A DNA stretch of 42,797 bases from contig NZ_CAJXYK010000051.1 in assembly GCF_913063425.1 (NCBI RefSeq), positions 1 through 42,797 on the forward strand, read 5' to 3'. The notes beneath the pieces were generated by a model that saw only the letters and a program-made list of their open reading frames with translations, searched no databases and had not been told where the DNA came from. Position 1 is the first letter of the stretch; each line of letters begins with the position of its first letter. Below, in pieces: positions 3,729-33,490 of this stretch. This DNA is from an uncultured Thiohalocapsa sp. (GTDB taxonomy: Bacteria > Pseudomonadota > Gammaproteobacteria > Chromatiales > Chromatiaceae). Position numbers and translations under genes: made by a program.

Positions 3729-3745
3729 GGATGATTCTCCGTGGA

Positions 3746-7086: not shown

Positions 7087-7111
7087 GGGATGTTGCGAAA
7101 TCGGCTTGCCG

Positions 7112-9316: not shown

Positions 9317-9355
9317 GTGCTTGGGCTCCGTTGCGCGGGGGTGGTCCGATGGCCG

Positions 9356-9763: not shown

Positions 9764-9770
9764 GACGGGC

Positions 9771-11399: not shown

Positions 11400-12034
11400 A
11401 TGTTGCCCGCGCCGGGGCTGTAGCTGGCGCTGACCACGGAATTGGCCAGAACGGTGTCGGCCTGCAGCACGCCGGAGAAGCTGCTCATGGCAGCGTTCAC
11501 CGTCACCATGGCCGCGTTCACCTCCACGTCGGCGCCCGCCTGGACACTGACCCGCCCGGCGGCGGTGATGCTGATGCCGTCCTGGGCCAGGGTCACCTCG
11601 TCGCCGCCGCGGCGGATGCGCACCTCGCCGGCACCGTCGTCGATCTCCACCCGGTTGCCGGAGGGCGTGCGCAGCGTGGCCCTGGGTCCGGCGCCGTCGT
11701 CGAGCTGCAGCATGCAGCCGCGCGGCGTGCGCAGCAGATAGTGGTCCTCGGGCGGGTCGGCGGCGTCCGGGAAGCTGTCGGCGCCGGACCAGAGCGCGCC
11801 CAGCACCAGCGGCAGGTCCGGTGTGACGAAGCCCACCACCACCAGCTCGCCGATGCGCGGCAGGCAGGCGAGGCCATAGCCGCCGCCGGCGGAGGGCACC
11901 ACCACGGGCGCCCAGAAGGCCGTGGGCGCCCCCACCAGGCTCACCTGGATGCGCCCGCGGGCGTCCGGGTCCTGGTTGTCCTGCACCTCCGCCAGGTGCA
12001 GGGCGGCGAGCTCGCCGAGGCCGTGCGGGGTCAT
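11393..12034 (-). CDS. Spike protein, gp5/VgrG OB-fold type
   Basis: This 213-residue protein has the gp5/VgrG pattern: an N-terminal beta-barrel part with GRIQVSLVGA, FWAPVVVPSAGGGYGLACLP and GELVVVGFV, then GALWSGADSFPD, then a C-terminal region of short repeating strands (GNRVEIDDGAGEVRI, GDEVTLAQDGISITA, GADVEVNAAMVTVNAA) of the kind that forms a trimeric beta-helix needle. Known role of the family: the spike that tips the inner tube. Its ATG overlaps the stop of the hub gene by 4 bases (12031-12034), so translation is probably coupled. In many eCIS hub and spike are a single VgrG-like protein (Afp8); here they are split. Confidence 0.92.
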   Translation of the reverse strand: MTPHGLGELAALHLAEVQDNQDPDARGRIQVSLVGAPTAFWAPVVVPSAGGGYGLACLPRIGELVVVGFVTPDLPLVLGALWSGADSFPDAADPPEDHYLLRTPRGCMLQLDDGAGPRATLRTPSGNRVEIDDGAGEVRIRRGGDEVTLAQDGISITAAGRVSVQAGADVEVNAAMVTVNAAMSSFSGVLQADTVLANSVVSASYSPGAGNMW

Positions 12035-13083
12035 GCCGCCTCCCCCCAGCCGCTGCGATTGAGCCGCAGGCGGGCGCGGTAGCCGGTGGCGCTGTCGAAG
12101 CCGTGCAGGCAGTGACTCACGCGCCAGGTGCCGGCCATGCGCGCAGACACACCGGCCAGGCGCACCTCGCGGCCGGCGCGCAGGCGTGGGTCGCCGACGC
12201 AGGTGACCTCGCCGGTGCAGAAGGCGCGGGCGCGGCGCTCGAAGTGGCCGCGGGCATAGGCGCGGCCGAGGCCCTCGCGGGTGGGCAGGGGCTGGGGCAC
12301 CAGCTCGTTGCCGGCCCAGCCGAGGAGGTCCAGCAGCTCAGCGGCGCCGCTGCCTGCGGGAGCGGGCTCCAGGCGCGCGCGCTCGCCGTTGATGCCGCTG
12401 CCGGCGGCGAGGTCCCAGCCCTTGACCTCGGTGCGGGTGGGCTGGTGGGCCAGGTCCGCCAGCAGCCGGGCGCTGAGGGCGTTGTCGGCGGCGTCCAGGG
12501 TGATGGGCTCCGGGTCCGGCGCCTCCGGGCGCGCGCGCAGGATGCCGTTGTGCACCCGCAGCGCCACGCCGAAGGGCCCGAGCACCCGCAGCAGAAAGGC
12601 GAGGTCGCTCTCGGTGAGCTGGTGCCAGTCGGCGGCGACAGCGGAGACGGCCACGTCGTGCTCCAGTCCATGGCGCTCGGCCACCGTGCGCACCAGGGTG
12701 TCGGCATCGGTGGCGGCGTAGACCATAGGTGCGCGCGCCCGGGCCAGGCGATGCAGCGGGTCCTGCAGCAGCAGCACCAGGCGCGGGGCGCCGTCGCCGT
12801 AGCGCTCCTCGATGCCGGTGAGCTCGCCGTCGAAGACGCGCAGCTCGGCGTCTTCGCCAAAGGCCACCTGCACCCGGTCGCCCAGGGCGATGTCCAGAAA
12901 GCGGAAGTCGGGTGCGTCGTCTTCCGGCCCGGCGCCGAAGAAGTTGAGCAGCAGCTCGCCGTGGGCCATGCCGTGCAGCGGCAGGTTGAGCGTCGCCCCC
13001 TGCAGCGCGTCGGCGAGGTCGGCGCGCTCCGTGCCGGCGACCTTGAGCCGCGGTCTGGCGCTGGTGTAGGCGGGGTCGGGCAT
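12031..13083 (-). CDS. Baseplate hub protein, gp27/late-control-D type (N-terminal half of a VgrG)
   Basis: The 350-residue product resembles phage late control D/gp27 hub proteins. Supporting segments include RVQVAFGEDAELRVFDGELTG and the ATDADTLVRTVAERHGL block followed by LTESDLAFLLRVLGPFGVAL. These correspond to the region of hub proteins where the chain enters the second beta-barrel domain. The family forms the trimeric hub that adapts the six-fold tube to the three-fold spike. It is followed with a 4-base overlap by the spike gene and preceded by the DUF5908-like short gene. Start ATG at 13081-13083, with only a weak purine run (GAGAG) upstream. Confidence 0.92.
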   Translation of the reverse strand: MPDPAYTSARPRLKVAGTERADLADALQGATLNLPLHGMAHGELLLNFFGAGPEDDAPDFRFLDIALGDRVQVAFGEDAELRVFDGELTGIEERYGDGAPRLVLLLQDPLHRLARARAPMVYAATDADTLVRTVAERHGLEHDVAVSAVAADWHQLTESDLAFLLRVLGPFGVALRVHNGILRARPEAPDPEPITLDAADNALSARLLADLAHQPTRTEVKGWDLAAGSGINGERARLEPAPAGSGAAELLDLLGWAGNELVPQPLPTREGLGRAYARGHFERRARAFCTGEVTCVGDPRLRAGREVRLAGVSARMAGTWRVSHCLHGFDSATGYRARLRLNRSGWGEAA

Positions 13084-13113
13084 GGCGAATGGGGGCTCTC
13101 TCGCTTAGGTCGA

Positions 13114-13281
13114 TCAGTCGGTGAGCAGGCGCGCGCGGCGCTCTTCGGCCAGCGCCAGCAGGCGCAGGACCTGCTCCTCCTCGGGCGTCGCCGGTGTCAG
13201 GGCGCCGAGGGGGTCCGGGTCGCCTTCCGGCTCCCCGCCGCCGGTGACTTCCAGGTCCAGCTCGTCGATGAGAATGGGCAT
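13114..13281 (-). CDS. Short DUF5908/Afp6-like protein
   Basis: This 55-residue protein begins MPILIDELDLEVTGGG. The opening M-P-x-x-I-x-E-L-x-x-x-V is the hallmark of the short DUF5908 proteins found at the Afp6 position next to the Afp7-like adaptor in eCIS loci. The C-terminal half (PEEEQVLRLLALAEERRARL) is a predicted amphipathic helix. ATG at 13279-13281 is preceded by GGGAG at a good distance. The frame stays open upstream to 13602, but that part lies inside the Gly/Ala/Ser-rich 3' end of the neighbouring gene and is not real. The role of the family is not firmly established. Confidence 0.8.
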   Translation of the reverse strand: MPILIDELDLEVTGGGEPEGDPDPLGALTPATPEEEQVLRLLALAEERRARLLTD

Positions 13282-13294
13282 GGCAGGGCTCCCG

Positions 13295-14413
13295 TCAGTC
13301 GAAGCCGACGCTGGTGGATGCGGAGGCGCGCAGGTCGGCCCCGGCGGAGGCGCCCGCTGATGCGCCCCCGGATGCGCCCAGGGATGCGTCGGCAGACGCG
13401 CCGAACGCGGCGCCGGCTGAGGCCGAGGCACCGGCGCCGGCCGTGAGGCCAGCACCCAGACTGCCACCCAGACCCGCGCCGGCACCCGCGCCCAGTCCGG
13501 CTGAGGCGCCCGCCGAGAGGCCGGCGCCGAGGCCGGCAGCGGCGCTGAGCTGGCCGGTGAGGGAGGCGCGTGCGTCGATGCTCGCTGACCCGCTGAGACC
13601 ACCGCCGATGCCGGCGCTCAAGTTGGCGCCAGCGCCCGCGGACAGCCCGGCGGTGGAGAAGGCGCCGGCGATGCCGGTGCCGATGGCGCCGGACGCGCCG
13701 AAGCTGAAGCCGGCCCCGCCGACGGCGGCGCCGGCCTTCACCGACAGCCCCAACTTGCCGCCCAGGGCCGCCGTGGGCTGCACCCCCGGCAGGCTGAGCC
13801 CCTGGCCCATGGCATCCCGGGGCGACTCCAGCCCGTTGAAGGCGGCGGTGCTGCGCCAGTCCGTGCTGGGCACGGGCGGGCTCCAGTCCGGGGCCTGGGT
13901 GCTGACATCGGCGAAGGTCGGGTCAGCGCCGGCGCCCGGCGCGTCCGCGCTGCCGGCGCGGGGCTGGTAGCGGTCCTGCTGGAGCTTGAGCGACACCGTG
14001 GCGCGCAGCGGCAGGCCGGTGGACGAGAAGAAGTCCAGCGTCTCGTCCATGCTGAGCATGAGCCCGACGAACTCGAAGGCCCCCCACTGGAACAGGCAGC
14101 GCGACGGCGCCTTGAGCTTGCTGCCTTCCTCCACGGGCTGCATGAAGCGCTCGTAGAGCACGCCGGTGCGCCGGCGCACGTCGGTGCCCTCCGCGCTGGT
14201 GTCGAACACCAGCTCCACCGTGAGCGTGCCGGCGCTCTTGTCCAGGTACTGGGCGGCGTTGCCGTTCTTGCTCTTGTCGTTGGCGGACAGGGAGTTGGCC
14301 AGGCTCACCTTCAGCGAGTCCGGATTGAACTGCACGTCCACGGCCTGACTCGGGTTGCCCTGGTCCGTGGGCCCGCTCACGGGCAGCAGCTTGGCGCGGG
14401 TGGGGTCCGGCAT
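13295..14413 (-). CDS. CIS tube-cap/adaptor protein (Afp7-like) with Gly/Ala/Ser-rich tail
   Basis: This 372-residue protein has an N-terminal domain of about 160 residues typical of the Afp7/CIS-tube adaptor family: DVQFNPDSLKVSLANSLSA, GTLTVELVFDTS, then FQWGAFEFVGLM and FFSSTGLPLRATVSLKL. Family members connect the inner tube to the hub and normally continue into a LysM domain. Here I see no LysM motif. From about residue 200 to the end the chain is almost entirely Gly, Ala and Ser in irregular GAG/GAS/GLGA repeats, resembling silk-like or antifreeze-like low-complexity sequence. AGGAGG lies 10 bases before the ATG at 14411-14413. The tail could be a flexible tether, an elastic lumen filler or a drifting spacer. 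Confidence 0.9.
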   Translation of the reverse strand: MPDPTRAKLLPVSGPTDQGNPSQAVDVQFNPDSLKVSLANSLSANDKSKNGNAAQYLDKSAGTLTVELVFDTSAEGTDVRRRTGVLYERFMQPVEEGSKLKAPSRCLFQWGAFEFVGLMLSMDETLDFFSSTGLPLRATVSLKLQQDRYQPRAGSADAPGAGADPTFADVSTQAPDWSPPVPSTDWRSTAAFNGLESPRDAMGQGLSLPGVQPTAALGGKLGLSVKAGAAVGGAGFSFGASGAIGTGIAGAFSTAGLSAGAGANLSAGIGGGLSGSASIDARASLTGQLSAAAGLGAGLSAGASAGLGAGAGAGLGGSLGAGLTAGAGASASAGAAFGASADASLGASGGASAGASAGADLRASASTSVGFD

Positions 14414-14450
14414 CTTGGTGTCGCCTCCTGTGTCGCGCTCTGGATTCGGC

Positions 14451-14987
14451 TCAGACGGGCCGCGTCAGCTCGAGCCCTTCATGCACCAGGTGCAGCTCCT
14501 CGATGGCCACCTGGTTGGCGGTGCCGGACAGGTCCGGCCCCTTGAACTTGATGGGCAGGGCGTTCAGCAGGGTCCAATGCATGACGGTCTCCGGGCTCGG
14601 CGCCGTGGTGAGGCCGGCATCTGCGCCCGGGGCGTTGCCGAGCACCTCGATGACGCCCACCATGCGGTAGTCGTAATCGGCCTGGCGGCTCACCACGTCG
14701 AACCAGGCCCAGAGGTCGTTCAGCGTGGTGACGCCGCGCTTGAGAATGACCGGCGAGAACTTGGTGCGCCCGGGCAGCTGCACCTCGCCCCAGTTGCGCC
14801 CGCCTTCCTGGACCGTTTTCGGCTCCATGGTGGCCTCGAGCCCACTCACCTCGCTGAAGGCGCCGCCGCAGAGGACATTGGTGGTGCGCCCGGCGGCGGC
14901 GCTGCGGGTGGCCGCGGCGGTGGGTGCAGCGGCCTCGTCGGCGGCGAAGAGCGTCACCCGGAAGCGGAAGGGGATGAAGGGCGTCAT
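14451..14987 (-). CDS. Tail tube protein, second copy (Afp5-like)
   Basis: This 178-residue protein is of the gp19/Hcp-like tube family: PFRFRVTLF at the N-terminus, FSEVSGLEATMEPKTVQEGG, LKRGVTTLNDLWAWFDVV, then LLNALPIKFKGPDLSG and EELHLVHEGLEL. These are the standard blocks of eCIS inner tube proteins. A short Ala/Thr-rich insertion after residue 16 and a longer loop before the PIKFKGPDL block distinguish it from the first tube gene, so it probably occupies the specialised lower ring next to the baseplate (Afp5 position) and not the bulk tube. GGGGAG is 7 bases upstream of the ATG. Confidence 0.93.
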   Translation of the reverse strand: MTPFIPFRFRVTLFAADEAAAPTAAATRSAAAGRTTNVLCGGAFSEVSGLEATMEPKTVQEGGRNWGEVQLPGRTKFSPVILKRGVTTLNDLWAWFDVVSRQADYDYRMVGVIEVLGNAPGADAGLTTAPSPETVMHWTLLNALPIKFKGPDLSGTANQVAIEELHLVHEGLELTRPV

Positions 14988-15008
14988 GGCTGTGCTCCCC
15001 TGCGCCGG

Positions 15009-16724
15009 TCAGGCCGCCGCCGCCGGGCGCCCGTCGGCACCGACTGCGCCCCGGCCCCCAGACGCCGGCCCCCCAGACGCCGGCCCCCCAGACGCCGGCC
15101 CCCCAGACGCCGGCCCCCCAGACGCCGGTCCCCAGCTGCCGGCCTGGTTGACGAAGGTGAGCCGGACGCGGTCCAGCGGGAAGGCCGGCGCCAGCTCCAG
15201 CTCGTAGCCCAGCACACCCGGCGGCGCACCGCCGACGGGGCGCAGCGGGCGGATGCTGAAGGCGTCCCGGGGCTGGGCGCCGCGCAGGGCGCCGCGGTCG
15301 TGCAGGCTGCGGCAGAAGCGCTCCAGCAGCAGCGGCACCCGTGGGTCATCGGGGTCGGCGTCGAAAACCAGGGCCTCGCCCAGGCGCCTCAGGCGGCGCT
15401 GAAGCCAGCCGAGGAACCGCTGTACCTCACCGGAGCGCCAACCGGGGGCGGTGCGGCCCACGGCATCCGTCGGGTGCAGCGCCGGCACCAGGAGCCGCTC
15501 GTCTTCCAGCTCAAGGCTGCCGCCGCGCTGGTGCAGCACGCCGACGCCGGGGCTGGTGCGCAGCGCCGCCGCCTGCTCCCGCGCCACGGGCGGGTAGGGA
15601 TTCCCGGCGCTCACCAGCGCCATGCCGGCCGCGGAGCGCCAGGGCCCGAGCCTGGCCGCCACCTGGGCCTGGGCGCCGGCCACCACGCCCACGGCGCTGC
15701 GCAGCCCGAGGTCGGCGTCGCGCAGATAGGGCCAGAGCAGCTGCAGCCGGCGGCCCCGGGACCAGCCGGATCCTGCTCGCGCCGCGAGCTGCGCCAGGGC
15801 CGCCGGCTGCGGCACCGGGTCCCGGTGGGTGCCGGCGGCGGCGAGCGGCAGGGTGTAGAGGCACATGAGGTCCGGGCGATAGTCCGCCAGCGCCCCGGCG
15901 ACGGCGCCGAGCAGGGTGAGCGTGGGCAGCGGCGGGGTCGGGGAGACCATCTCCGGGCCGTGGCGGCGCTCGCGGTGGCCGTCGTCATGGCGCACGCTGC
16001 AGGGCAGGAAGCGGGGCGCCGGGTTCGGCAGCCGCACCCGGGGCGGCCCCGCGAGGGTGGGCGGCACCTGAAGGCGCTCCAGGTCCGGCAGGGCCAGGAT
16101 GCCGATGTCCGGGATGGCCAGCGCGAGCCCCAGCCCGCGCAGGGCCAGCGGCATGTGCAGCGGCAGGGGTGCGGACGGGTGGGCCGCGTCCGGGTCGGCG
16201 AGGGCCGCTTCCGGCAGGCCGAAGAAGCCGCCGCGACCTTCCGCCTCCGGCACGACGATGACCCAGAGCAGCTCGCCGCCGTTGGCGAAGAAGTCCGCCA
16301 CCGCCTGGGGCAGCCAGGCGCCGCTGCCGCCGAGGGTGCTCGGATGGCCGGCCGTGGCCGTGGCGGCGTCCGGGAAGAGATCGGTCAGCTCCGCCGCGGC
16401 GCGCAGCGGCAGCGGCAGGTGCTTAAGGGCGCTGAGCCGGGCGCGGGTGGCCGCATCCAGCTCGCCCGTCGAGGCTGCGCCGGGCGCTGCCGGCGGAGCC
16501 GCCGCAGGGCCGGGCGGATGCGCCGCGTCCAGATGGTCCACGGCGGCGCCGAAGCCGATGTCGCGCAGCGCCGCGCGCGCCCGGGGGCGCAGCCGCTCGG
16601 GGCGCACCCGCCCCGGGCAGTGGCCGATGAAGCAGGCCGGCAGCACCGAGCCCGCGGCGTCCGCCGGGCGCGGCGTGAGCCGGACCCGGCCGGCCATGAG
16701 GTCCATGTCCGCGGTGCCGGTCAC
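15009..16724 (-). CDS. Degenerate second tail sheath-like protein with GPASG repeat tail
   Basis: This 571-residue protein starts with GTG at 16722-16724, overlapping the tube gene stop by 4 bases. It occupies the place of the extra sheath genes (Afp3/Afp4) between tube genes. Sheath-like blocks remain: LWVIVVPEAEGRGGFFGLPE, LALAIPDIGILALPD, FLGWLQRRLRRLGEALVF, then LLERFCRSLHDRGALRG and LELAPAFPLDRVRLTFV, which align in order with the C-terminal sheath domain. It lacks the N-terminal Y-x-x-PGVFVEE opening of a canonical sheath. The last 35 residues contain five GPASG units coded by the 15-bp repeat at 15046-15135. It may be a baseplate-proximal sheath ring or a sheath regulator. The assignment is weaker than for the main sheath. 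Confidence 0.78.
   Translation of the reverse strand: MTGTADMDLMAGRVRLTPRPADAAGSVLPACFIGHCPGRVRPERLRPRARAALRDIGFGAAVDHLDAAHPPGPAAAPPAAPGAASTGELDAATRARLSALKHLPLPLRAAAELTDLFPDAATATAGHPSTLGGSGAWLPQAVADFFANGGELLWVIVVPEAEGRGGFFGLPEAALADPDAAHPSAPLPLHMPLALRGLGLALAIPDIGILALPDLERLQVPPTLAGPPRVRLPNPAPRFLPCSVRHDDGHRERRHGPEMVSPTPPLPTLTLLGAVAGALADYRPDLMCLYTLPLAAAGTHRDPVPQPAALAQLAARAGSGWSRGRRLQLLWPYLRDADLGLRSAVGVVAGAQAQVAARLGPWRSAAGMALVSAGNPYPPVAREQAAALRTSPGVGVLHQRGGSLELEDERLLVPALHPTDAVGRTAPGWRSGEVQRFLGWLQRRLRRLGEALVFDADPDDPRVPLLLERFCRSLHDRGALRGAQPRDAFSIRPLRPVGGAPPGVLGYELELAPAFPLDRVRLTFVNQAGSWGPASGGPASGGPASGGPASGGPASGGRGAVGADGRPAAAA
15046..15135 (-). repeat. 15-bp tandem repeat coding GPASG units
   Basis: Four perfect consecutive copies of a 15-base unit (plus-strand phase GACGCCGGCCCCCCA, at 15061-15120) are flanked by partial or imperfect copies on both sides. 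It lies in frame at the 3' end of the second sheath-like gene and codes a Gly-Pro-Ala-Ser-Gly tail. The identity between units indicates recent slippage expansion, so copy number may vary between strains. Confidence 0.95.
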
Positions 16725-17176
16725 AGCTGCTCGATGGTCTCCACGGCCAGCACCAGCTCTTCCATGGCCACGTCGGTGCCGCCTTTGGCCGTGAGGGTCG
16801 GACCGGTGTACTTCATGGGCATGGCCCCGAGCAGGCGCCAGGTGACCACCGTCTGGCTCTGGCTCTCGTCCTGCAGCCGCACCTCCACGGAGCGCTTGGC
16901 GTCCACGGCGCCGCCGCGGATCTGCTCCAGCCAGTCGTAGATGTTCTGGGCGCCGATGACGCCGCGCTTCAGGGTCACGTCGCCGGCCTTGTGGATACCG
17001 GGGATCTTGGTGACATAGTTCACCGGCACATTGCCGTTGCGGTACTCGGCGATGGTGACCTCGGCATTGAGGCCCGAGACCTCGGCGAAGCCGCCGATCA
17101 CCTCGGCCTCGGTGCCGTCGCCTAGGGCCACCAGGAAGTTGAAGGCGGAATAGGGGGTGGGGCGTTGAATGGGCAT
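16721..17176 (-). CDS. Tail tube protein, main copy (Afp1-like)
   Basis: The 151-residue length is typical for eCIS inner tube proteins of the gp19/Hcp-like fold. It has YSAFNFLVAL, GFAEVSGLNAEVTIAEYRNG, VTLKRGVIGAQNIYDWLEQI, then LLGAMPMKYTGPTLTA and EELVLAVETIEQL. Family role: stacked hexameric rings forming the tube that is driven into the target and carries cargo. GGAG lies 6 bases before the ATG at 17174-17176. It follows the main sheath gene after 109 bases, and its stop overlaps the next gene by GTGA. Confidence 0.95.
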   Translation of the reverse strand: MPIQRPTPYSAFNFLVALGDGTEAEVIGGFAEVSGLNAEVTIAEYRNGNVPVNYVTKIPGIHKAGDVTLKRGVIGAQNIYDWLEQIRGGAVDAKRSVEVRLQDESQSQTVVTWRLLGAMPMKYTGPTLTAKGGTDVAMEELVLAVETIEQL

Positions 17177-17224: not shown

Positions 17225-17292
17225 TTAAGGCGTGCTCTCGGGCTTGCTCCCAGGCTTGCTCTCGGGCTTGCGCTCAGGCTGGGCCTCAGGCG
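17225..17292 (-). repeat. 12-bp tandem repeat at the sheath stop, codes KPES in the +1 frame
   Basis: Five imperfect 12-base units (phase GCTCTCGGGCTT on the plus strand, from 17233 to 17292) begin at the sheath stop codon and fill much of the sheath-tube spacer. On the minus strand, the frame shifted by +1 at the stop is open for 20 codons and reads as Lys-Pro-Glu-Ser-type repeats before a TAA at 17225-17227. This looks like a former or alternative C-terminal extension of the sheath. Confidence 0.8.
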
Positions 17293-19526
17293 TCCGCCGT
17301 CTTCTGGCCGATGCGGAAGATCACGAACTCCGCCGGCCGCAGCGGCGCGACGCCCACCAGACACACCAGGCGGCCGTTGTCGAGGTCGTTCTGGGTCATG
17401 GTGCTGCGGTCGCAGCGCACGAAGAAGGCGGCCTTGGCGGAGCCGCCGAGCAGGCGGCCGTTGAACCACTCGTTGTAGAGGAAGCCCTCGACGGTGGCCG
17501 TCACATTGGCCCAGAGGCGCTCGCCGTTGGGCTCGAACACCACCCACTGGGTGGAGACGTCGATGGAGCGCTCCAGGTACAGGAAGTAGCGCCGCACGTT
17601 GACGTACTGCCATTCCGGGTCGCTGGAGAGCGTGCGCCCGCCCCAGACCCGGTGGCCGCGCCCGGGGAAGGAGCGCAGGCAGTTGATGCCGTTGGGGTTC
17701 AGCAGCTCCTGCTGGAACTGGTTGATGTCCTGCGCGAACCGGAGCGCGCCGATGACGACCTCGTTGGCCGGGGCCTTGTGCACGCCGCGGGTGACATCGG
17801 TGTTGGCATAGACGCCGGCGATGAAGCCGCCCGGAGGCACTGTGATGGTCGGGCGGCGCCCGGTGGGGTCTGCCGTAACCACCCAGGGGTAGTAGAGCGC
17901 GAGCCGGGAGTCGTCGAAATTGCCCGCGAATTCGCGCACCTCGGACAGGGCCATGCCCTCCTGCGCATCGACGATGCCGATGCGATAGCGCATGCGCCGG
18001 CAGTGGGCCTGCATGGCCGCCACCACCTGCTGGTGGCTGTCGGCATGGGCCGCTGCGGCCGGGGTCATGACAATGGCGATGTCCTCGATGTCCTCCAGCG
18101 CGGCGAGGCCGGTGTTGCCCTGCACCTCGTCCACCTCGCCTGCGTAGTCCGTGCCCCCGGGGGTGTCGCCGTCGCTGCCCGGGCTGCCGTTGGCGGCGCC
18201 GGCGCCCATGCGGATGAGCCAGCGCGGGCCGGCGGCGACCGTGGCGGGCGGGTCCAGGAAGGCGTCCTCGAACAGGCTCTCCAGCGCCGCGAGCACGTCG
18301 GCGCCGGTGACCGGGGAGCCGTTCAGGGTCTCCGCGATGGTGCAGGACACGGGGGCGGTGAGGGCGTCCAGACGCCGCTCCGGCGTCGCCGGCATCACCG
18401 CGGGCATGCTGTCGGCCCCGTCCGGTGCGGTGCTCATGCCGGTGTAGCTGTGGATGATCTCGCCCTGCTCGTCGTCCGGCTCGTCGCCCGGGTCCGCCAG
18501 GCGCACGTCGATGTCGAAGCCGCGCTTCACCATCACCGCGGCGGCGGCGCCGGGCTCCGCCGCCAAGGCGGCGAGGCGCAGGGGGATGTCGTCGGCGACG
18601 CCCTGATTCAGGTCCGCCAGCACCGTGAAGGTCGTGCCGGCGGCGTCGATGGTGCCGCGCAGCTGCCGCAGCGTGCCCCAGTGGGCGGCGCCCGTGAACG
18701 CGGACAGGTCGGTCTCGTCGGTGAGGGTGATCTCGGCGGCATCACCGTCCGCGAGCGGACCCGTGGTGGGTTGGCGGGCGTAGACCCGGGTGAAGGTGGT
18801 GCTGGCGGCGGCGACGCCGGCGGCCATGAGCCGGCCCTCGGTGGCGCCGTCCGGGGCGAGCTGATCCGGCGTGGTGCTGCCGGAGGCGGCGGTGATTTCC
18901 GCCAGGTTGTCCACGATGTCGTAATGGTCGCCGTTGCGGCGCACCAGGCCGCGGAAGTCCATCGGGAAGCGCGCCGGCGGCACGTCGCCGGCGACGCCGG
19001 TGGCACGGATCTCCTGCGGCAGCCCGGTGGCGTCCAGGAACAGCACTTCGCCGTCGGCGGGCGTGGTGGTGCGCTCGCGCCTGAGCAGGTTCTCGCTGTC
19101 GCGCCAGCGCAGCTCCAGGGTGAAGTCGCCGCGCGCCCCGGGGAAGCGGCTGGTGAAGGTGACCACGCCGTTGGCGTCCGTCGCAGTGGCCGCATCGGCG
19201 CTGCTGCCGGCGCTCGTCGCATCGGTGCTGTTGACGCCGGCAACCACCCGGGCCACGTAGAGCTGCTTGCCGCCGTTGTCGAAGAAGGCGCGGGCGGCGA
19301 TGGCGGTGTGGTTCAGTATCGCATTGCCGCTCAGGCTCAGGTCCTCGGCGTCGCCGTAGATGCGCACGAAGTCCGCGAAGCTGGTGCAGACCTCCGGCCT
19401 GCCGCGCAACGGGCCGGAGCGGGTGGGGCCGACGATGGCGGCTACGCTGGTGCCCACGCCCTCGATGGAGCGGGAGCGGAAGCTGACTTCCTCTACGAAG
19501 ACGCCTGGGGCGAGGTACTCGGGCAT
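17286..19526 (-). CDS. Tail sheath protein, main copy (Afp2-like)
   Basis: The ATG at 19524-19526 has AGGAG 9 to 13 bases upstream. The 746-residue product opens MPEYLAPGVFVEEVSFRSRS and VGTSVAAIVGPTRSGP, the canonical sheath N-terminus whose arm interlocks with neighbouring subunits. It ends with the conserved sheath C-terminal domain: HRVWGGRTLSSDPEWQYVNV, RRYFLYLERSIDVSTQWVVF, NEWFNGRLLGGSAKAAFFVR, then APLRPAEFVIFRIGQ. Between about residues 100 and 430 there is a large insertion of beta-rich, Asp/Thr/Ala-rich sequence, making the protein about twice the length of Afp2-type sheaths. Such insertions form the outer surface of the sheath in other systems. Function by family: contractile outer sheath. 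An open frame continuing upstream to 19739 belongs to the neighbouring gene's shadow. Confidence 0.95.
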   Translation of the reverse strand: MPEYLAPGVFVEEVSFRSRSIEGVGTSVAAIVGPTRSGPLRGRPEVCTSFADFVRIYGDAEDLSLSGNAILNHTAIAARAFFDNGGKQLYVARVVAGVNSTDATSAGSSADAATATDANGVVTFTSRFPGARGDFTLELRWRDSENLLRRERTTTPADGEVLFLDATGLPQEIRATGVAGDVPPARFPMDFRGLVRRNGDHYDIVDNLAEITAASGSTTPDQLAPDGATEGRLMAAGVAAASTTFTRVYARQPTTGPLADGDAAEITLTDETDLSAFTGAAHWGTLRQLRGTIDAAGTTFTVLADLNQGVADDIPLRLAALAAEPGAAAAVMVKRGFDIDVRLADPGDEPDDEQGEIIHSYTGMSTAPDGADSMPAVMPATPERRLDALTAPVSCTIAETLNGSPVTGADVLAALESLFEDAFLDPPATVAAGPRWLIRMGAGAANGSPGSDGDTPGGTDYAGEVDEVQGNTGLAALEDIEDIAIVMTPAAAAHADSHQQVVAAMQAHCRRMRYRIGIVDAQEGMALSEVREFAGNFDDSRLALYYPWVVTADPTGRRPTITVPPGGFIAGVYANTDVTRGVHKAPANEVVIGALRFAQDINQFQQELLNPNGINCLRSFPGRGHRVWGGRTLSSDPEWQYVNVRRYFLYLERSIDVSTQWVVFEPNGERLWANVTATVEGFLYNEWFNGRLLGGSAKAAFFVRCDRSTMTQNDLDNGRLVCLVGVAPLRPAEFVIFRIGQKTADA

Positions 19527-20434: not shown

Positions 20435-21028
20435 TCAGACGGTCCCGGACGGGAAGACCCGCGAGCGCACCGGGCCGTGGCTGGTGGCGTCCGGGCGCAG
20501 GCGCAGCTGCAGGGTGCGGATGACATAGGCCGCGGACAGGGTGAAGTCCGCGCCGAGGCGGTCCCAGATGCGCATCTGGTCCTCGATGCTGATGTCCTCG
20601 GGGGCGATGCTCGCCTGCTCGGCGCTGCGCCATTCGGCGTCGTGCTCGACGAGGGCCGCCAGGTCCAGCAGCGGCTCGTTGGCGATCTCCAGCATGGCCC
20701 AGGCCAGCAGGTCTGCCTCCAGCGCGGCGCTGGCGGCATTGGCGATGAGCAGCAGGTGCAGATTCACCGGCAGCTCCCGGTCGGGCTCGGCGCCCACACC
20801 GGCGGGGCCGGGCGCCGGCGTGCGCCGGTTGCGCCCGTGCGGGTCCACGGCGATGCGGTACAGGTAGAGGCCGAGCTGGTTGCCGCTCAGGGCTTCGCTC
20901 AGGTCGGCGCTGCCGAGCACGGTCACCCGGGCGGTGGTGCTCCCGCTGCGCCAGGGCTCGGGCAGGCGGGCGGTGAGCCGGTCCGCGAGCGCGGTCACCG
21001 CGCCGTGCACCCCTTGGAAGGACGCCAT
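20435..21028 (-). CDS. DUF4255 (Pvc16 N-terminal) tail-terminator protein, Afp16-like
   Basis: This 197-residue protein matches the DUF4255/Pvc16_N family: VTALADRLTARLP, SGNQLGLYLYRIAVDPHGRN, ELPVNLHLLLIANAASAALE, then LAWAMLEIANEPLLD and FTLSAAYVIRTLQLRL. Family members cap the distal end of the tube and sheath and fix tail length (Afp16 in the antifeeding prophage). It starts at the ATG 21026-21028 with GAGG upstream and follows the winged-helix-like gene by 11 bases. DUF4255 genes are among the most reliable markers of eCIS loci, so this gene helps to separate the locus from an ordinary phage or pyocin. Confidence 0.94.
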   Translation of the reverse strand: MASFQGVHGAVTALADRLTARLPEPWRSGSTTARVTVLGSADLSEALSGNQLGLYLYRIAVDPHGRNRRTPAPGPAGVGAEPDRELPVNLHLLLIANAASAALEADLLAWAMLEIANEPLLDLAALVEHDAEWRSAEQASIAPEDISIEDQMRIWDRLGADFTLSAAYVIRTLQLRLRPDATSHGPVRSRVFPSGTV

Positions 21029-21039
21029 TGCGTTGGACC

Positions 21040-21363
21040 TCAGGCGTCGCGGTCCGGGGTTTCGGCGCCGTCCGCGCCGGCATCATCGGCTCCCGACGCG
21101 TCCGGGTCCGCCGCATCCCCGCCCGGGGCGACGGCGCCGTACACCAGCTCGCCGCCGGCGTTGCGCTGCGGGCGCACACGGCCCTGGGCCTCCAGGTGAC
21201 GCAATGCCTTCTCCACCATGCTCCTCGTCTCCAGCAGGCGCTGGCGGGCGATCCACCAGCGCGTGATGCCGTCCACCGTGTCCCGCGCGCCCTGGTTGGC
21301 GGCCAGGTAGCGGGCGATCTCTTCCGCAAGGGCCGCCACCGCGTCCTCGTCGTCGCTGCTCAT
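21040..21363 (-). CDS. Small winged-helix-like protein, first gene of the eCIS operon
   Basis: The 107-residue product starts MSSDDEDAVAALAEEI at the ATG 21361-21363. A TTG at 21424-21426 in the same frame would lie inside the -24/-12 promoter element, so the ATG is the better start. The block YLAANQGARDTVDGITRWWI and then VEKALRHLEAQGRV looks like a small winged-helix fold, with the last helix and wing ending in G-x-x-VYGAV. The C-terminus is acidic and low-complexity (Asp/Ala/Gly). Small proteins of this kind occur at the head of eCIS operons. Whether this one binds DNA or is a structural part is not known. Confidence 0.8.
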   Translation of the reverse strand: MSSDDEDAVAALAEEIARYLAANQGARDTVDGITRWWIARQRLLETRSMVEKALRHLEAQGRVRPQRNAGGELVYGAVAPGGDAADPDASGADDAGADGAETPDRDA

Positions 21364-21409
21364 CTCTGCTGGGCGCGGGCTCCGTGGCGAGCGTTTGGGG
21401 TCGGGTATG

Positions 21410-21425
21410 AGCAAGCGCTTTGCCA
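21410..21425 (-). promoter_or_regulatory. Sigma-54 (-24/-12) promoter for the eCIS operon
   Basis: The minus strand reads TGGCAAAGCGCTTGCT. Compared with the sigma-54 consensus TGGCACG-N4-TTGCA/T, it has the invariant GG and GC pairs at exact spacing and differs in two positions of the -24 box. The predicted transcription start is about 21399, leaving a leader of roughly 36 bases before the ATG at 21363. A sigma-54 activator gene lies directly upstream. The strand, spacing and location all agree, so this is a strong candidate. Confidence 0.75.
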
Positions 21426-21479
21426 ATCTGCCCAGGTGAAGCAGAACAATGGCTTAGCAGCAGTCGGCGTCGCCCCTGT

Positions 21480-21501
21480 GGGTCCGGAGTGACCCAGGGC
21501 G
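21480..21501. promoter_or_regulatory. Palindromic site 1, possible activator-binding site
   Basis: The core GGGTC-N6-GACCC is followed by AGGGCG. It lies about 55-75 bases upstream of the -24 box. Nineteen of 22 positions are identical to the site at 21701-21722, and these are the only two copies I see. Binding by the adjacent sigma-54 activator is inferred. Confidence 0.45.
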
Positions 21502-21573
21502 CAGGGGCCTCGGGGTCGGGCCCAGGCACGCCGGCGCGAATCTCTGTTGCGTCCGGCGCGAGGCGGGCAGGCG

Positions 21574-21614
21574 GGTAGGTCGGATCAGCCTGTCAGGGCG
21601 TAACCCGACCTGCC
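21574..21614. repeat. REP-like imperfect inverted repeat
   Basis: The arms GGTAGGTCGG and CCGACCTGCC enclose about 20 bases that include a TCAGCC/GGCGTAA pair, the form of a common proteobacterial intergenic REP palindrome. It lies between the sigma-54 activator gene and the eCIS promoter. Confidence 0.6.
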
Positions 21615-21700
21615 GGAGCGAGCCGTGCCCGGTGTCTGCTGGTTCTGAAGCCAGTCGAAAGCCCGCTGTCGAGGTGCTGCAGCGCCGGGTGCCGGGGCCT

Positions 21701-21722
21701 GGGTCGGAAGCGACCCAGGGCG
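21701..21722. promoter_or_regulatory. Palindromic site 2, possible activator-binding site or terminator stem
   Basis: A perfect inverted repeat with 8-bp arms (CTGGGTCG and CGACCCAG, 21699-21718) and a 4-base loop is followed by the same AGGGCG seen at site 1. It lies 34 bases after the stop of the sigma-54 activator gene and could also act as a terminator stem. No T-rich run follows on the minus strand, which speaks against an intrinsic terminator. Confidence 0.45.
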
Positions 21723-21756
21723 GGGTGCAGGTGACCCGGATGGGTGTGACGCGGAT

Positions 21757-23121
21757 TCAGCTGCGGGCGGGTCCGGCGTCGATGGCGTGCTTTTTGAGGA
21801 GCTTGCCCAGCGCCCGGCGCTCCTTGTCTGCGCGGCGGGCGGCCTCGGAGACGTTGCCGCCGGTGGCCTGGAGCAGGTCGGTGAGGTAGCTGCGCTCGAA
21901 GGCCTCGATGGCGCGGGCCTTGGCCACGGCGAAGGGCTCCTGGGTGGGGGCGGCGGACACCGATGGCATCGCCTCACCGGCCGCCGGCTGTGGGAAGACG
22001 AGCGCCCCGTCGGCGAGCAGCACACTGCGGTGAATCAGATTCTCAAGCTCGCGCACGTTGCCGGGCCAGGGGTGGGCGGCGAGCACCGGCAGGGCGGCGG
22101 GGGCGAGCTCCCGGGCGGGCAGTCCGTACTCGGCGCAGAAGCGGTGGATGAAGTGGCGTGCCAGCAGCGGGATGTCCGTCACGCGCTCGCGCAGCGGCGG
22201 CAGGCGCAGCGCGAGCACATCCAGGCGGAAGTAGAGGTCGGCGCGAAAGCCGACGCCCGTGCTCAGGCGGCGCAGGTCCGCGTTGCTGGCGGCCACCACG
22301 CGGGCGTCGGAGCGCAGCGTGCGGCTGCTGCCCAGGGGACGGTACTCGTGCTCCTGCAGGAACCGGAGCAGGGCTGCCTGGGCCTTGGGCGAGAGGGTCT
22401 CGATCTCGTCCAGGAACAGCGTACCCCCGGCGGCATCGCCGATGGCGCCGGCGCTGGCGGTTTTGGCGTCCGTGTAGGCGCCGCGGGCGTGGCCGAAGAG
22501 CTCGTTCTCCAGCAGCTGGTCGGGCAGGGCACCGCAGTTGACGGCGACGAAGGGCCCGCCGGCCCGCGGACCCAGATAATGCAGTGCCCGCGCCGCCAGC
22601 TCCTTGCCGGTGCCGGTCTCGCCCTCGATGAGCACCGGCGCCGCACAGGGCAGCATACGGCCCAGCACGGCCATGGCCCGGTTGAAGGCGGGTGCGCGGC
22701 CGATGAGGTTGAGCTCCGCCAGCAGCCCCGCCAGCGCCGGGTCCAGCGCGTCCGCCGCGGGCTCCGGCAGTTGGCGGCAGAGGCGGGCGAGCCGGAAATC
22801 GAGCTCCGGCTGCTCGCAGGGCCAGCGCACACAATCGCAGCAGAGCTCCGCGAGGCGGTCGCCCCAGCCTGGGTGACCACCCACCAGGACGGCGAGGGCG
22901 GGAATCCCCCGCGGCCGGCAAAGCGCGTGGAGCCGTTCGGCCAGTGCAGTGTCAGGGGTGCCGGCGAGCACCAGAAGCGGCGCGGCGGGTGGGCTCGCGC
23001 TCAATGACTCCAGCGAGCTGATACTGACGGCGTAGCCGAGCGCGGTGCAGGCGCCGGTCACGGCCTCAAGGCGGTCGGCGCCGCCGGCGGTGGGCAGGAG
23101 AAGGAGAGATCTGTCGCGCAT
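21757..23121 (-). CDS. Sigma-54-dependent transcriptional activator (AAA+, Fis-type HTH)
   Basis: This is a 454-residue bacterial enhancer-binding protein. Residues 1-130 form a receiver-like or unknown sensory domain in which I see no convincing phospho-acceptor Asp context. The AAA+ domain follows, with Walker A GETGTGKE (167-174), Walker B GTLFLDE (233-239), then FRADLYFRLDVLALRLPPLR and HPWPGNVRELEN. The C-terminal Fis-type helix-turn-helix reads GNVSEAARRADKERRALGKL. The sigma-54 contact loop, normally GAFTGA, is GAYTDA here (214-219). Family role: ATP-driven remodelling of closed sigma-54 RNA polymerase complexes. It lies upstream of, and in the same direction as, the eCIS operon with its -24/-12 promoter, so that operon is the obvious target. 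Confidence 0.94.
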   Translation of the reverse strand: MRDRSLLLLPTAGGADRLEAVTGACTALGYAVSISSLESLSASPPAAPLLVLAGTPDTALAERLHALCRPRGIPALAVLVGGHPGWGDRLAELCCDCVRWPCEQPELDFRLARLCRQLPEPAADALDPALAGLLAELNLIGRAPAFNRAMAVLGRMLPCAAPVLIEGETGTGKELAARALHYLGPRAGGPFVAVNCGALPDQLLENELFGHARGAYTDAKTASAGAIGDAAGGTLFLDEIETLSPKAQAALLRFLQEHEYRPLGSSRTLRSDARVVAASNADLRRLSTGVGFRADLYFRLDVLALRLPPLRERVTDIPLLARHFIHRFCAEYGLPARELAPAALPVLAAHPWPGNVRELENLIHRSVLLADGALVFPQPAAGEAMPSVSAAPTQEPFAVAKARAIEAFERSYLTDLLQATGGNVSEAARRADKERRALGKLLKKHAIDAGPARS

Positions 23122-23620
23122 CCGGGCATACCCCGCTGGGTCGGGTACCGCGCGCGACTGTGGTTATGATGGTCTGCGCGGCGAACCGAATCAGGTTATC
23201 CGCCGTTGGCTACAGCCGCCGGGGTGCCTGCGATACGCTGCCAGGGAATCCGGCCAACGGGTTGCCCCGCGCCTGTGCCGGTACGCGAGGTGGACACGGC
23301 TCCGCGGCCGCCCCCATCAACCGACGGTAGCAACCTCGCCGATAGAGGGGTATGCGGGATTTCCGCGAGCACCCGCAAGTCTGACGGAATCCCTGAGTCG
23401 ATGGAAAGGGAAAAGCTGATGACCGGCCCGATGGCCAGTGCCGACGGTCCCCATCAGGACATCGACGCCATGCGCGAAAACGCCCGAGCAGGCCGCTGAA
23501 TCATCCCTTTTCGCGTCTTTCGCGTACTTCGCAGCTCCAAAATTCCGGTCTTTTCAGGGTCGCCCTGCGGTTCAGTGCTGACAAGATCTGGGACGCTCAG
23601 TAACGCGCGAACGAATGACA
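23122..23620. other. Intergenic stretch without recognisable gene
   Basis: About 500 bases between the start of the sigma-54 activator gene and the first GGGGACGT motifs. It must contain the activator promoter. A plus-strand reading frame ending at 23499 has a purine-rich AAAGGGAAAAG before an ATG at 23419 that would code only 26 residues (MTGPMASADGPHQDIDAM at its start). I could not link it to a family and do not call it a gene. Confidence 0.5.
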
Positions 23621-23704
23621 TACAACGTCCCCGTATCAGCGCCGAATTAGGTATAACGTCCCCTAATTAGCGTCAACTGTTATGGGGACGTGATACTTAA
23701 TTGT
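23621..23704. repeat. REP-like motifs with GGGGACGT/ACGTCCCC core
   Basis: Three motifs occur in both orientations: TACAACGTCCCCGTATC, then AGGTATAACGTCCCCTAATT, then TGGGGACGTGATACTTAATT. They belong to the same family as the tandem array that follows and the motifs around the transposase gene at 29299. Confidence 0.75.
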
Positions 23705-23721
23705 CTGATGGTGTCCACCGA

Positions 23722-23853
23722 CGGTAATACGGGGACGTTATACTGAATTCTTGGATGCTTTCTCTCGGTAATACGGGGACGTTATACTGAATTCGTGGAT
23801 GCTTTCTCTCGGTAATACGGGGACGTTATACTGAATTCGTGGATGCTTTCTCC
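23722..23853. repeat. 44-bp tandem repeat, three units
   Basis: Units start at 23722, 23766 and 23810. Each begins CGGTAATACGGGGACGTTAT and ends in GGATGCTTTCTC. The second and third units are almost identical, while the first differs by one base in the AATTCGTGG part. There is no variable spacer, so this is not a CRISPR array. It lies 85 bases before the YSC84-domain gene. Confidence 0.95.
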
Positions 23854-23859
23854 CGCGTC

Positions 23860-29298: not shown

Positions 29299-30009
29299 AT
29301 GGCCAGAATCGCCCGCGTCGTCGCCCCCGGCCTGCCGCATCACATCACCCAGCGCGGTAACCGCGGCCAGCAGACCTTCTTCGATGACGACGACTACAAG
29401 GCCTACCGCCACCTGATGGCCACACACGCCGCCGGCTGCGGCACCCGGGTTTGGGCCTACTGCCTGATGCCGAACCACGTCCACCTCATCATGGTGCCGG
29501 ACCACGAAGACGGGCTGCGCTGTGCCGTCGCCGAGACGCACCGCCGCTACACCCGGCGCATCAACTCGCGCAATGACTGGCGGGGGCATCTGTGGCAGGA
29601 GCGCTTCCACTCCTTCGTGATGGATGAAGAGCACCTCATCGCTGCCGCCCGCTACATCGAGCGCAACCCGGTGCGGGCCGGGCTCTGTGAGCGGGCCGAG
29701 GACTGGCCCTGGTCCAGCGCCCGCGCGCATCTGGCGGGGCGCGACGACGAGCTGGTGGACGTTCAGCCCCTGCTGGAGCGCGTGTCGCAATGGCATGTCC
29801 TGCTCGCCGAGCCGGACGAGGACCCCTTCGCTGCCCAGCTCCATGCCCACATGCGCACCGGCCGACCGCTGGGGCAGGACACCTTCGTACAGACGCTGGA
29901 GGCGCGGCTCGGCCGGTCGCTGATGCGCAAAAAGCCGGGGCCGAAGCCCAAGCCCAAGTCGGATGCGCCGCCGAAGGCCGATGCCGAGGCCGCGGGCAGT
30001 CAGAGCTGA
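29299..30009 (+). CDS. REP-associated tyrosine transposase (RAYT, Y1_Tnp family)
   Basis: This 236-residue protein begins MARIARVVAPGLPHHITQRG, the typical opening of RAYTs. The HUH metal-binding motif is PNHVHLIM (HVH at 60-62) and the catalytic tyrosine is Y119 in AAARYIERNPVRAGL. WRGHLWQERFHSFVMDEEHL is another conserved block. The Lys/Pro-rich C-terminus (KKPGPKPKPK) may bind DNA. RAYTs are single-copy, domesticated relatives of IS200/IS605 transposases that are linked to REP palindromes. The GGGGACNNTATAC motifs in this window are the natural candidate for its substrate. Confidence 0.94.
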   Translation: MARIARVVAPGLPHHITQRGNRGQQTFFDDDDYKAYRHLMATHAAGCGTRVWAYCLMPNHVHLIMVPDHEDGLRCAVAETHRRYTRRINSRNDWRGHLWQERFHSFVMDEEHLIAAARYIERNPVRAGLCERAEDWPWSSARAHLAGRDDELVDVQPLLERVSQWHVLLAEPDEDPFAAQLHAHMRTGRPLGQDTFVQTLEARLGRSLMRKKPGPKPKPKSDAPPKADAEAAGSQS

Positions 30010-31433: not shown

Positions 31434-32550
31434 CGCCGCAGGTCGGTAGTCGCTTGGTGTTCAGCGCCGGCAACGACCCGAACGGCCGTGGTCAGCGCGC
31501 CATCAAGGCCGTACCGGCGACCGGTGTCATCACGGGCAGCGCCGCGCCGCCGACCCGGCCCCGCGGCAGCCGGCCGGCGGCGCGCTCCACCCCTCGCTCG
31601 CGTCCTCACCTCCCGGCTTCCGGCACGGCGCACGCGTCACGCGAGCGCAAGCCCGCCCGCACACCCCGCCGCCGTGACCAATCCCTGCGACCGCTGCCGC
31701 TCGACTGGCGCACCGGGCTGGTGGCCGCCGCGACGCTCTGCCGAGCTGTCTGCGCTCGGGCGCGGGTAGGATCGGGTGAGCGCCAAGGCGAGGTGGCGGT
31801 GGCGGATCACTGGGCCTTGTGCCGCACCAAGCTGCGCGGGGTCATTCGCGGCAGAAACGTGGTCTGCTACTGATTCTCGAAGCCGTGGTCAAGACCCTCT
31901 TCCCCGACCTGCTGGAGCAGATCGCGCTGCCGCCGTGCAAGGTCATCGAAAACCCCTGCGCCGCCTGGCAGGGCATGGCCACATGCTGGGGCACAGCTTC
32001 GGTGGCGACAGCTCCGCGGCGTTCAGTCATGCCCTTTCGGAGATGCTGTCGGCCACTGTCGATCACGCGGCACAAAGCGGCGGCCTGCGGCGAGCTTGGG
32101 ATGAGACGGAGGGTGAGAACCTGGCAAGAGCAGTTGAGCGCGCCGCAACAGCGCCCGGACCCGTGGGAGCGGCATCCCTGCCGCGACACCCAGCCGGACA
32201 CGGAGGCAGCGTCTGCAACCCGAGGTGCACACCAGTTAAGGTTACCGTCCCCCTGATCATTCCCCTGATCATCCCCCTGATCGTCCCCCGGATCAGGCCC
32301 ACAACGAAGCTGGCATCCGCCGAATCGCAGCGCTAACCTGTGGGCACGCAGATTCGCAACGACCGACATCCACCCCATGTCAATCTCCGCGGATTACGAC
32401 CAAGACTTCTTCGCCTGGATCACCCACAACGTGCAACTGCTGCGCAGCGGTCGCTTGTCAGAGGTGGATGCGGAGCATGTCGCCGAGGAGCTCGAAAGCA
32501 TGGGCAAGCGGGATCTCAGGCAGCTGCGGAGCCGCCTGCAGGTGCTGATC
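31434..32550. repeat. 1.1-kb direct repeat, copy A
   Basis: Matches 33567-34683 at an exact offset of 2133 bases. The first 100 or so bases hold about ten scattered differences; after that I see none, including the REP element (32163) and the motif run GTTACCGTCCCCCTGATC at 32240. The copy ends inside the DUF29 coding region. The long open frames inside it (for example 31776-32336) show no family resemblance and lie in GC-rich DNA, so I do not call them genes. Confidence 0.93.
32377..32550 (+). pseudogene. 3'-truncated DUF29 gene
   Basis: The first 58 codons are identical to those of the intact DUF29 gene at 34510 (MSISADYDQDFFAWITHNVQ at the start). At 32551 the sequence switches to unrelated DNA. 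Translation would continue in frame to 32715 with meaningless residues that overlap the DUF2887 gene. It is a by-product of the 1.1-kb duplication. Confidence 0.85.
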
Positions 32551-32626
32551 CTGGCGGATTCTACAGCCTGGGCCCAGGCTGCGGGGGCCGGGGGCGATGG
32601 CAGGTTTCAGCACCGTGAACGGTTAC

Positions 32627-33490
32627 ATGAAGACCGACCACCCCATCTACATCTTCCTGACGGCCGGCCCCGAAGCCTTTCGGGTGCTGACCGGTGGACA
32701 CAGGCTTTCGGGTAAGTACCGTTTCAGCTCCCTCACCATCAAGAGCCTGGAGCGGCGTCTGGACGGGATTCTCGAGCCCGATGGGCACGCCGGGCCAGTG
32801 TACGTGGTTGAATTCCAAGGGCAGCCGCAGGCCAAGGCCTGGTATAACCTGCTCACCAAGATGGGGCTCTACGGCGAGCAGTTTCCCGAGCGCGAAGTGC
32901 TCGGCATCGGCGTGCTGCTGCGCGAGCGCGACCGCCCGGATCAGCCGGCCTGGGCCAACGACAGCGAGCGGCCGCTGTGCATTGTTGCGCTGGATCGGTT
33001 TCTGCCCCAGTGGCTGGAGCGCGAGCCCGAGAACCCCTTTGTCGCCGTGTTCGCGCCGCTGGTGATCGAAGACGACGCCGAGCTGCGCCGCCGCGCACCG
33101 AGCCTCTGGCAGCGCATCCGCGGCGCGCCGCTCAGCGAGGAGGCGCGCGAAGCGTTGTCGCAGGTCTTGGAGTTTTGGTTTTTCGAACGCTTTCGCGGCC
33201 TGTCCGCGCAGGAGATTTGGGCCATGCTGAACCCATCGACCCCCATTCAAGAGACCCGCGCCTACCAGAGCATCTTTGCCGAGGGCAAAGCGGAAGGCAA
33301 AGCGGAAGGCAAGGCGGAAGGTAAGGCAGAGGATCTTGGGCGGCTGCTGGCCCGACGCTTCGGCCCCTTGCCCGACTGGGCCGTCGCACGCATCCAGGCC
33401 GCGCCCATCGCCCAGCTCGACGCCTGGCTCGACGGCATTTTCGACGCCGACCGCCTAGAAGCGCTCATCGGACCGGAGCAGCAGGACTGA
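32627..33490 (+). CDS. DUF2887-DUF4351 protein (Rpn-like PD-(D/E)XK nuclease family)
   Basis: This 287-residue protein starts MKTDHPIYIFLTAGPEAFRV, the family's usual beginning. The PD-(D/E)XK-like core is RRLDGILEPDG (D46) followed by VYVVEFQGQPQAK (E62, Q64, K70), where the usual E-x-K or E-x-Q step is E-F-Q. It continues with NLLTKMGLYGEQFPE and FWFFERFRGLSAQEIWAML. Near residue 230 there are four GKAE units, then a C-terminal DUF4351 domain, LGRLLARRFGPLPDWAVARI. Proteins of this group are recombination-promoting nuclease-like and often present in many copies in purple sulfur bacteria. It lies between the two 1.1-kb repeats, next to the broken DUF29 start. An in-frame ATG at 32597 is less likely. 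Confidence 0.87.
   Translation: MKTDHPIYIFLTAGPEAFRVLTGGHRLSGKYRFSSLTIKSLERRLDGILEPDGHAGPVYVVEFQGQPQAKAWYNLLTKMGLYGEQFPEREVLGIGVLLRERDRPDQPAWANDSERPLCIVALDRFLPQWLEREPENPFVAVFAPLVIEDDAELRRRAPSLWQRIRGAPLSEEAREALSQVLEFWFFERFRGLSAQEIWAMLNPSTPIQETRAYQSIFAEGKAEGKAEGKAEGKAEDLGRLLARRFGPLPDWAVARIQAAPIAQLDAWLDGIFDADRLEALIGPEQQD
33283..33330 (+). repeat. 12-bp tandem repeat coding GKAE
   Basis: Four near-identical 12-base units (GGCAAAGCGGAA and close variants) in the linker of the DUF2887-DUF4351 gene. The number of E-G-K-type units commonly differs between members of this family. Confidence 0.85.

Follow-up and report, generated by a model that had tools for sequence, protein, structure and literature searches.

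Probable sigma-54 control of an eCIS operon by its neighboring activator in an uncultured Thiohalocapsa sp.

The eCIS cluster and the genes before it

The window, i.e., the whole 42,797-nucleotide stretch of Thiohalocapsa sp. DNA that was analyzed, carries an eCIS cluster on its minus strand. The first recognized eCIS gene encodes a Pvc16_N protein (20435-21028; Pfam PF14065, E=2.5e-26) and is followed downstream by the contractile sheath (17286-19526; PF04984 and PF17482, PHROG tail sheath). The remaining stretch (4657-17176) holds, by Pfam, two gp19-type tubes, CIS_tube, gpV, baseplate J, tail protein I, and a hub, whose match lies slightly under the Pfam cut-off (29.6 versus 30.1 bits). The clustering of sheath, tube, hub, baseplate, and Pvc16 genes identifies the locus as an eCIS. 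Inside the stretch, the product of 15009-16724 has no Pfam or PHROG match and is sheath-like by iterative HMM search only, making it a possible second sheath-like protein, and the gene at 9771-11399 is unrecognized. The cluster is truncated, since the contig starts at position 1 of the window, and neither an AAA+ ATPase (Pvc15 type) nor cargo genes were recognized in the ORFs scanned. The last visible genes on the eCIS side (1-1875 and 1890-4630) have no Pfam match; NCBIfam CIS13 matches far under the cut-off occur at 1890-3728 and 3746-4630, which may be CIS-related.

The first gene of the operon is orf1 (21040-21363, minus strand), which encodes a 107-amino-acid predicted winged-helix protein. 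Just upstream and in the same direction, the initial annotation had reported a complete sigma-54 activator gene, and Pfam bears this out: the gene (21757-23121, minus strand) is intact and encodes a 454-amino-acid protein with a Sigma54_activat domain (PF00158, E=8.2e-57), an AAA lid, and a Fis-type HTH (PF02954). Its layout comprises a receiver-like fold (residues 1-114), the AAA+ domain and lid (139-375), and the HTH (405-444). The Walker A residues G167, G170, G172, and K173 are invariant in alignments of 28 and 33 sequences, and GAYTDA, a variant common to many relatives, replaces GAFTGA in the loop that contacts sigma-54.

Elsewhere in the window, positions 23612-23855 contain tandem and inverted repeat copies with the core GGGGACGTTATACT, and 29299-30009 encodes a Y1 transposase of the IS200 kind; as a guess, the two could represent a REP-type element with its transposase. 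Segments 31776-32715 and 33909-34947 share the same ORF pattern at an offset of 2133 bases, with a DUF29 gene in the second, and are perhaps a tandem duplication.

A -24/-12 element and two dyads in the activator-operon gap

The -24/-12 element TGGCAAAGCGCTTGCT occupies minus-strand positions 21410-21425, in the orientation of the eCIS genes, and ends 46 bases before the ATG at 21363. It has the sigma-54 promoter frame TGGC-N7-TTGC with both the GG and the GC, and the usual -24/-12 numbering puts the predicted +1 at 21399, giving a leader of 36 nt. The initial annotation was correct in placing a near-consensus element on the right strand just before the operon; the location stands, while the gene that it called the first eCIS gene is the small predicted winged-helix protein, which is no known structural eCIS protein. 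The source genome also encodes a sigma-54 factor. The count within the window is at chance level (one TGGCAAAGCGCTTGCT match found versus 0.82 expected, with at least one copy in 58 of 100 shuffles; 57 one-mismatch -24/-12 matches versus 58.5 expected), and the case for the element is carried by its position and conservation. A consensus scan of 21340-23500 gave no sigma-70-like site, which says little since only 0.1 would be expected by chance.

Between activator and operon, we also found two perfect TGGGTC-N6-GACCCA dyads that the earlier annotation had missed. The distal dyad TGGGTCGCTTCCGACCCA (21700-21717, minus strand) is a candidate upstream activator (enhancer) site, given its rarity in the genome and the same dyad class in relatives. 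Rarity, together with the distances seen in linked loci, likewise marks the proximal dyad TGGGTCACTCCGGACCCA (21479-21496, minus strand) as a candidate enhancer site. The proximal dyad starts 71 bp before the TGG of the -24 element, and a distance of this kind is usual for an activator site. In the 5,899,572-base assembly, the exact TGGGTCN6GACCCA pattern has two copies, both of them here; a reversed control pattern occurs once per strand.

Conservation of the promoter in related loci

Related loci were found by activator similarity alone in a contig search, and eCIS genes and orf1 were then detected in them by HMM searches started from the window genes. Among the best 80 of 159 relatives, which were kept, 40 loci have eCIS genes, 50 have orf1, and 51 have either; these 51 and the window make up the 52 linked loci considered here. 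In a tree of 93 rows, all 52 linked activators fall within one group of 68 (SH-aLRT 97), the other 16 members of which are not visibly linked.

The initial annotation proposed comparing the -24/-12 element in related loci, and this comparison favors it. Counting sites that score at least 20 within 850 bp after the activator, we found the element in 44 of the 52 linked loci versus 3 of 52 on the opposite strand, and 20 shuffles gave a mean of 4.95 and a maximum of 9. Among clade members that have neither linked eCIS genes nor orf1, 1 of 15 has the element, and among the 29 loci that do not belong to the clade, 8 have it (mean of 3.7 and maximum of 7 in shuffles). Eight linked loci have no good element inside 850 bp. 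When the limit is 1.8 kb, 36 of 41 eCIS-bearing loci have one, and L036, L047, L050, L053, and L068 score 18-19. As far as sequence comparison can tell, the arrangement of activator, putative enhancer sites, and sigma-54 promoter recurs beside such clusters in distantly related bacteria.

Dyad classes follow the recognition helix

Perfect dyads with 6-bp arms and a 6-bp spacer number 60 in the gaps of linked loci, versus 18.5 in shuffles (largest 26), the highest count among the 15 spacers tried. Counts for spacers of 0, 4, 8, 10, and 12 are likewise above the shuffle maximum, by smaller margins (46 for spacer 4), probably as a result of nested dyads. The dyads fall into classes: class A, TGGGTC-N6-GACCCA, was defined in the window, while class B, TGCGGC-N6-GCCGCA (Nitrospira and several Acidobacteria), and class C, CAGGAC-N6-GTCCTG (another sub-group), were derived from the very loci used for counting them. 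Dyad class tracks two predicted recognition-helix residues of the activator, which are G-K/R for class A, Q-R for class B, and W/F-E for class C. Forty-seven linked loci have a -24/-12 element. A cognate dyad with at most one mismatch accompanies it in 14 of 20 loci of the G type, all 13 of the Q type, and 4 of 13 of the W/F type (one W-N activator is counted with the last type); at the same threshold, 9 of the 13 W/F-type loci lack a class C dyad, L089 (R-S helix) has no dyad, and off-class dyads are absent from all 47. Allowing two mismatches within 300 bp, 34 of 46 linked loci with the element have a cognate dyad, and for 26 of the 34 the nearest such dyad is 69-94 bp away. The G-type locus L058 has its perfect class A dyad at +112; here the automatic choice fell on a distant -24/-12 element.

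On the tree, dyad class switches approximately two times, so there are few independent replicates of the helix-dyad match; phylogenetically independent contrasts of helix versus dyad had too few pairs. Seventeen hand-picked distances show a 10.5-bp tendency (P 0.007; inter-dyad 0.013), a phasing result that we do not rely on because the hand-picking omitted loci with distant dyads. No pattern suggestive of activator autoregulation was seen in the 400 bp before the longest-ORF start of linked activators, where there is one cognate dyad with two mismatches (L087) and one -24/-12-like site (L071).

Dyads and promoter where gene order has moved

In nine “Candidatus Accumulibacter” loci (L038, L039, L044, L045, L048, L051, L056, L060, and L061), the dyads and the -24/-12 element are both shifted to a position after orf1. 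What lies before the eCIS when the activator gene is elsewhere? We took 7 of the 16 unlinked activators, each of which carries G at the first helix position, and searched their genomes for sheath genes, together with those of the linked L066 and L067. A sheath was present in five of the seven unlinked-activator genomes (L025 and L041 had none). These five genomes gave six sheath regions, one of which (L129) is cut before orf1, leaving five loci. At both L131 and L132, two perfect class A dyads are followed by a -24/-12 element and then by orf1; L127 has a one-mismatch dyad with the element, and L130 has two two-mismatch dyads with it. Dyads and promoter before an eCIS, with the activator gene elsewhere, are clear in four of the five loci and weak in one (L128).

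Genome-wide, the exact class A dyad has four sites in four of 12 other class A genomes and none in the remaining eight; the reversed control occurs in 2 of the 12. Three of the four sites are at an activator-eCIS locus (L038, L044, and L045, by our own coordinate matching) and one is elsewhere. A composite pattern, GGGTCN6GACCCN{50,78}TGGCN7TTGC, was tried as a module finder and matched in 6 of 398 genomes (reversed control, 1). It proved too loose, as the window's match was the only one at an eCIS among the regions looked at: four of the five other regions (L110-L113) have no eCIS match, and the fifth, in G422, is identical to G424 in the matched stretch.

The N-terminal domain of the activator

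AlphaFold2 predicts a fivefold alternation of strand and helix over residues 5-114, with pLDDT of 69-95 by blocks of ten, in a model built on an alignment with many rows that start at the BLAST match and so lack the N-terminus. Foldseek aligns most of the activator with NtrX, FleQ, NtrC1, and LuxO at an rmsd of ∼15-21 Å over all domains, and these large values are probably due to differing domain placement. The Pfam receiver model (Response_reg) has no match in the window activator even at E≤0.05; of the 33 full-length relatives that possess the domain, 3 reach this threshold (best, 0.0053). In the window activator, the catalytic places of a receiver are occupied by P10/T11, A53, and W100, i.e., the acidic pair, the phospho-Asp, and the Lys are missing. 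In the alignment of 33 rows, whose columns are gappy, Lys is found at column 100 in one row, and Asp at column 53 in two and at column 54 in one. Of the 33 rows, 32 retain the proline that follows the usual lysine and one retains the lysine itself, with the lysine column assigned by our own reading.

We rejected a phosphorylated response regulator of the NtrC class as a description of this protein: a receiver fold is predicted, but the acidic pair, phospho-Asp, and Lys are absent. The structural models suggest a degenerate receiver, and it is probably not by ordinary phosphorylation that the activator is triggered. In addition, 17 of the 52 linked activators have fewer than 130 residues before Walker A, which leaves no room for an N-terminal domain (33 are longer, and 2 are uncounted). 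Given the degenerate receiver, with Pfam matches in 3 of 33 relatives and its catalytic residues mostly missing, and the shortage of room in these 17 linked activators, the earlier proposal that this domain senses a specific signal is hypothetical, although its other half, sigma-54 control by the neighboring activator, is strongly supported by the conserved promoter elements, the activator-specific dyads, and their joint movement.

The winged-helix protein orf1

AlphaFold2 predicts a winged helix for orf1 (pLDDT 73), and D28, G32, and W36 are invariant in 29 aligned sequences. Foldseek gave no match at E≤0.001; the best matches (E ∼0.02-0.1) are MepR-, Zur-, PerR-, and Fur-like regulators together with O-methyltransferases, which we take to match through their winged-helix part. 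Pfam matches across the 29 members are weak, with MarR_2 in seven and GntR in six. From its predicted fold, orf1 may be a co-regulator or feedback factor.

Partners of the module

A search of 398 genomes for orf1 found at least four with matches (the window's, G038, G188, and G244), a count that may be too low because at most 12 candidates were scored per genome. Class A dyads and a -24/-12 element accompany orf1 in G038; G188 has the element before its eCIS and no upstream dyad of classes A-C; G244 has neither dyad nor element at the expected place. Pvc16_N occurs in 19 of the 398 genomes, two of which are also orf1 genomes, so the sigma-54 module seems to serve a minority of eCIS in this sample.

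The module also has other neighbors. In G038, the whole module precedes a type VI system (L157, contig C29), and in G244, activator and orf1 do so (L158, contig C1); in both type VI systems TssB and TssC are fused in one sheath ORF of 697-709 amino acids. Activator and orf1 adjoin polysaccharide-export genes at L026 and L058 and a secretin at L072. No eCIS gene was detected in 11 of the 52 linked loci, among which L081 has a downstream eCIS_core protein. Judged by gene neighborhoods, eCIS is the main, not the sole, partner of the module. Cultured relatives that carry the module include Halochromatium glycolicum and Azohydromonas caseinilytica.

A proposed mechanism and its alternatives

It is very likely that the eCIS operon is under sigma-54 control by the adjacent activator. 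From the element and the dyads, which are conserved and move together, we infer that sigma-54 RNA polymerase would transcribe the eCIS operon, from orf1 onwards, from the promoter at 21410-21425, starting at about 21399. The upstream gene would encode the dedicated activator of this operon, whose Fis-type HTH dimers would bind the dyads at 21479-21496 and 21700-21717. DNA looping would then bring the AAA+ ring to the closed complex, which ATP hydrolysis by the ring would open. We put the probability of this joint reading, i.e., sigma-54 transcription from this promoter with a dedicated activator acting via both dyads, at roughly 0.88.

How else might the locus be explained? The -24/-12 element could be a chance match in GC-rich DNA, with another promoter driving the eCIS genes, and the chance-level count in the window would fit this. 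However, the element is conserved strand-specifically in linked loci, cognate dyads lie at comparable distances, and the arrangement persists in genomes that have the activator gene elsewhere, which makes a coincidence very improbable. The dyads might also be bound by some other protein, such as the winged-helix orf1 product, which could repress or autoregulate; its predicted fold and its co-occurrence with the activator in 50 of the best 80 of 159 loci speak for this. We think this unlikely, as dyad class tracks the recognition helix of the activator.

It would be similarly surprising if the activator were a general regulator whose eCIS linkage is incidental. Such a role would accommodate its position with orf1 before two type VI systems and beside polysaccharide-export and secretin genes, as well as the linked loci in which no eCIS gene was detected (L081, with its eCIS_core protein, notwithstanding). 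Set against this, eCIS genes are present in 40 of the best 80 of 159 loci, which were found by the activator alone, and both exact dyads of the window's own genome are in this gap. Dedicated sigma-54 control of the eCIS operon is the reading that we prefer.

Relation to known systems

VasH is reportedly a sigma-54 activator of type VI secretion. The present system resembles the VasH/Sfa type in that a cluster-encoded sigma-54 activator, with RpoN, would serve a contractile injection machine, here proposed from sequence alone. Sigma-54 control of type VI systems is established, e.g., for Sfa2 and the P. aeruginosa H2-T6SS, where the N-terminal domain of Sfa2 is of the GAF type and its binding site lies 2132 bp upstream of the RpoN site (PMC8855297). 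In contrast to Sfa2, the activators studied here are found mainly with eCIS and have an N-terminal domain that resembles a receiver or is absent, most of the nearest dyads lie 69-94 bp ahead of the -24 element, and a winged-helix gene comes first. FleQ, NtrX, and NtrC1, among the best Foldseek matches, share the receiver-AAA+-HTH domain order and fold, whereas the window activator lacks the receiver active site, has GAYTDA, and has an eCIS as its presumed target.

Regulators named as eCIS-linked in the consulted parts of Geller 2021 (PMC8213781) are of GerE/LuxR type, BTAD, and RfaH; these share the eCIS linkage but belong to other families with another promoter logic. By term search, “sigma” is absent from the Geller 2021 text (PMC8213781), “sigma,” “enhancer,” and “promoter” from the review PMC10598620, and “sigma” and “promoter” from PMC4122934. 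No tie between eCIS and sigma-54 was found in the literature searched, which covered passages of mostly open-access papers, making this weak evidence of absence.

More tentatively, activator and orf1 may form a portable cassette for eCIS and type VI systems with an evolving helix-to-dyad code. In this possible scheme, orf1, made first, would report or limit particle production via the activator or the promoter and take over sensing where the N-terminal domain is absent. Little is known so far about how eCIS are switched on. A dedicated sigma-54 activator with recognizable sites would make the promoter and its regulator predictable and would let dyad scans propose candidate targets in many uncultured bacteria; it would also tie eCIS control to the sigma-54 logic of some type VI systems.
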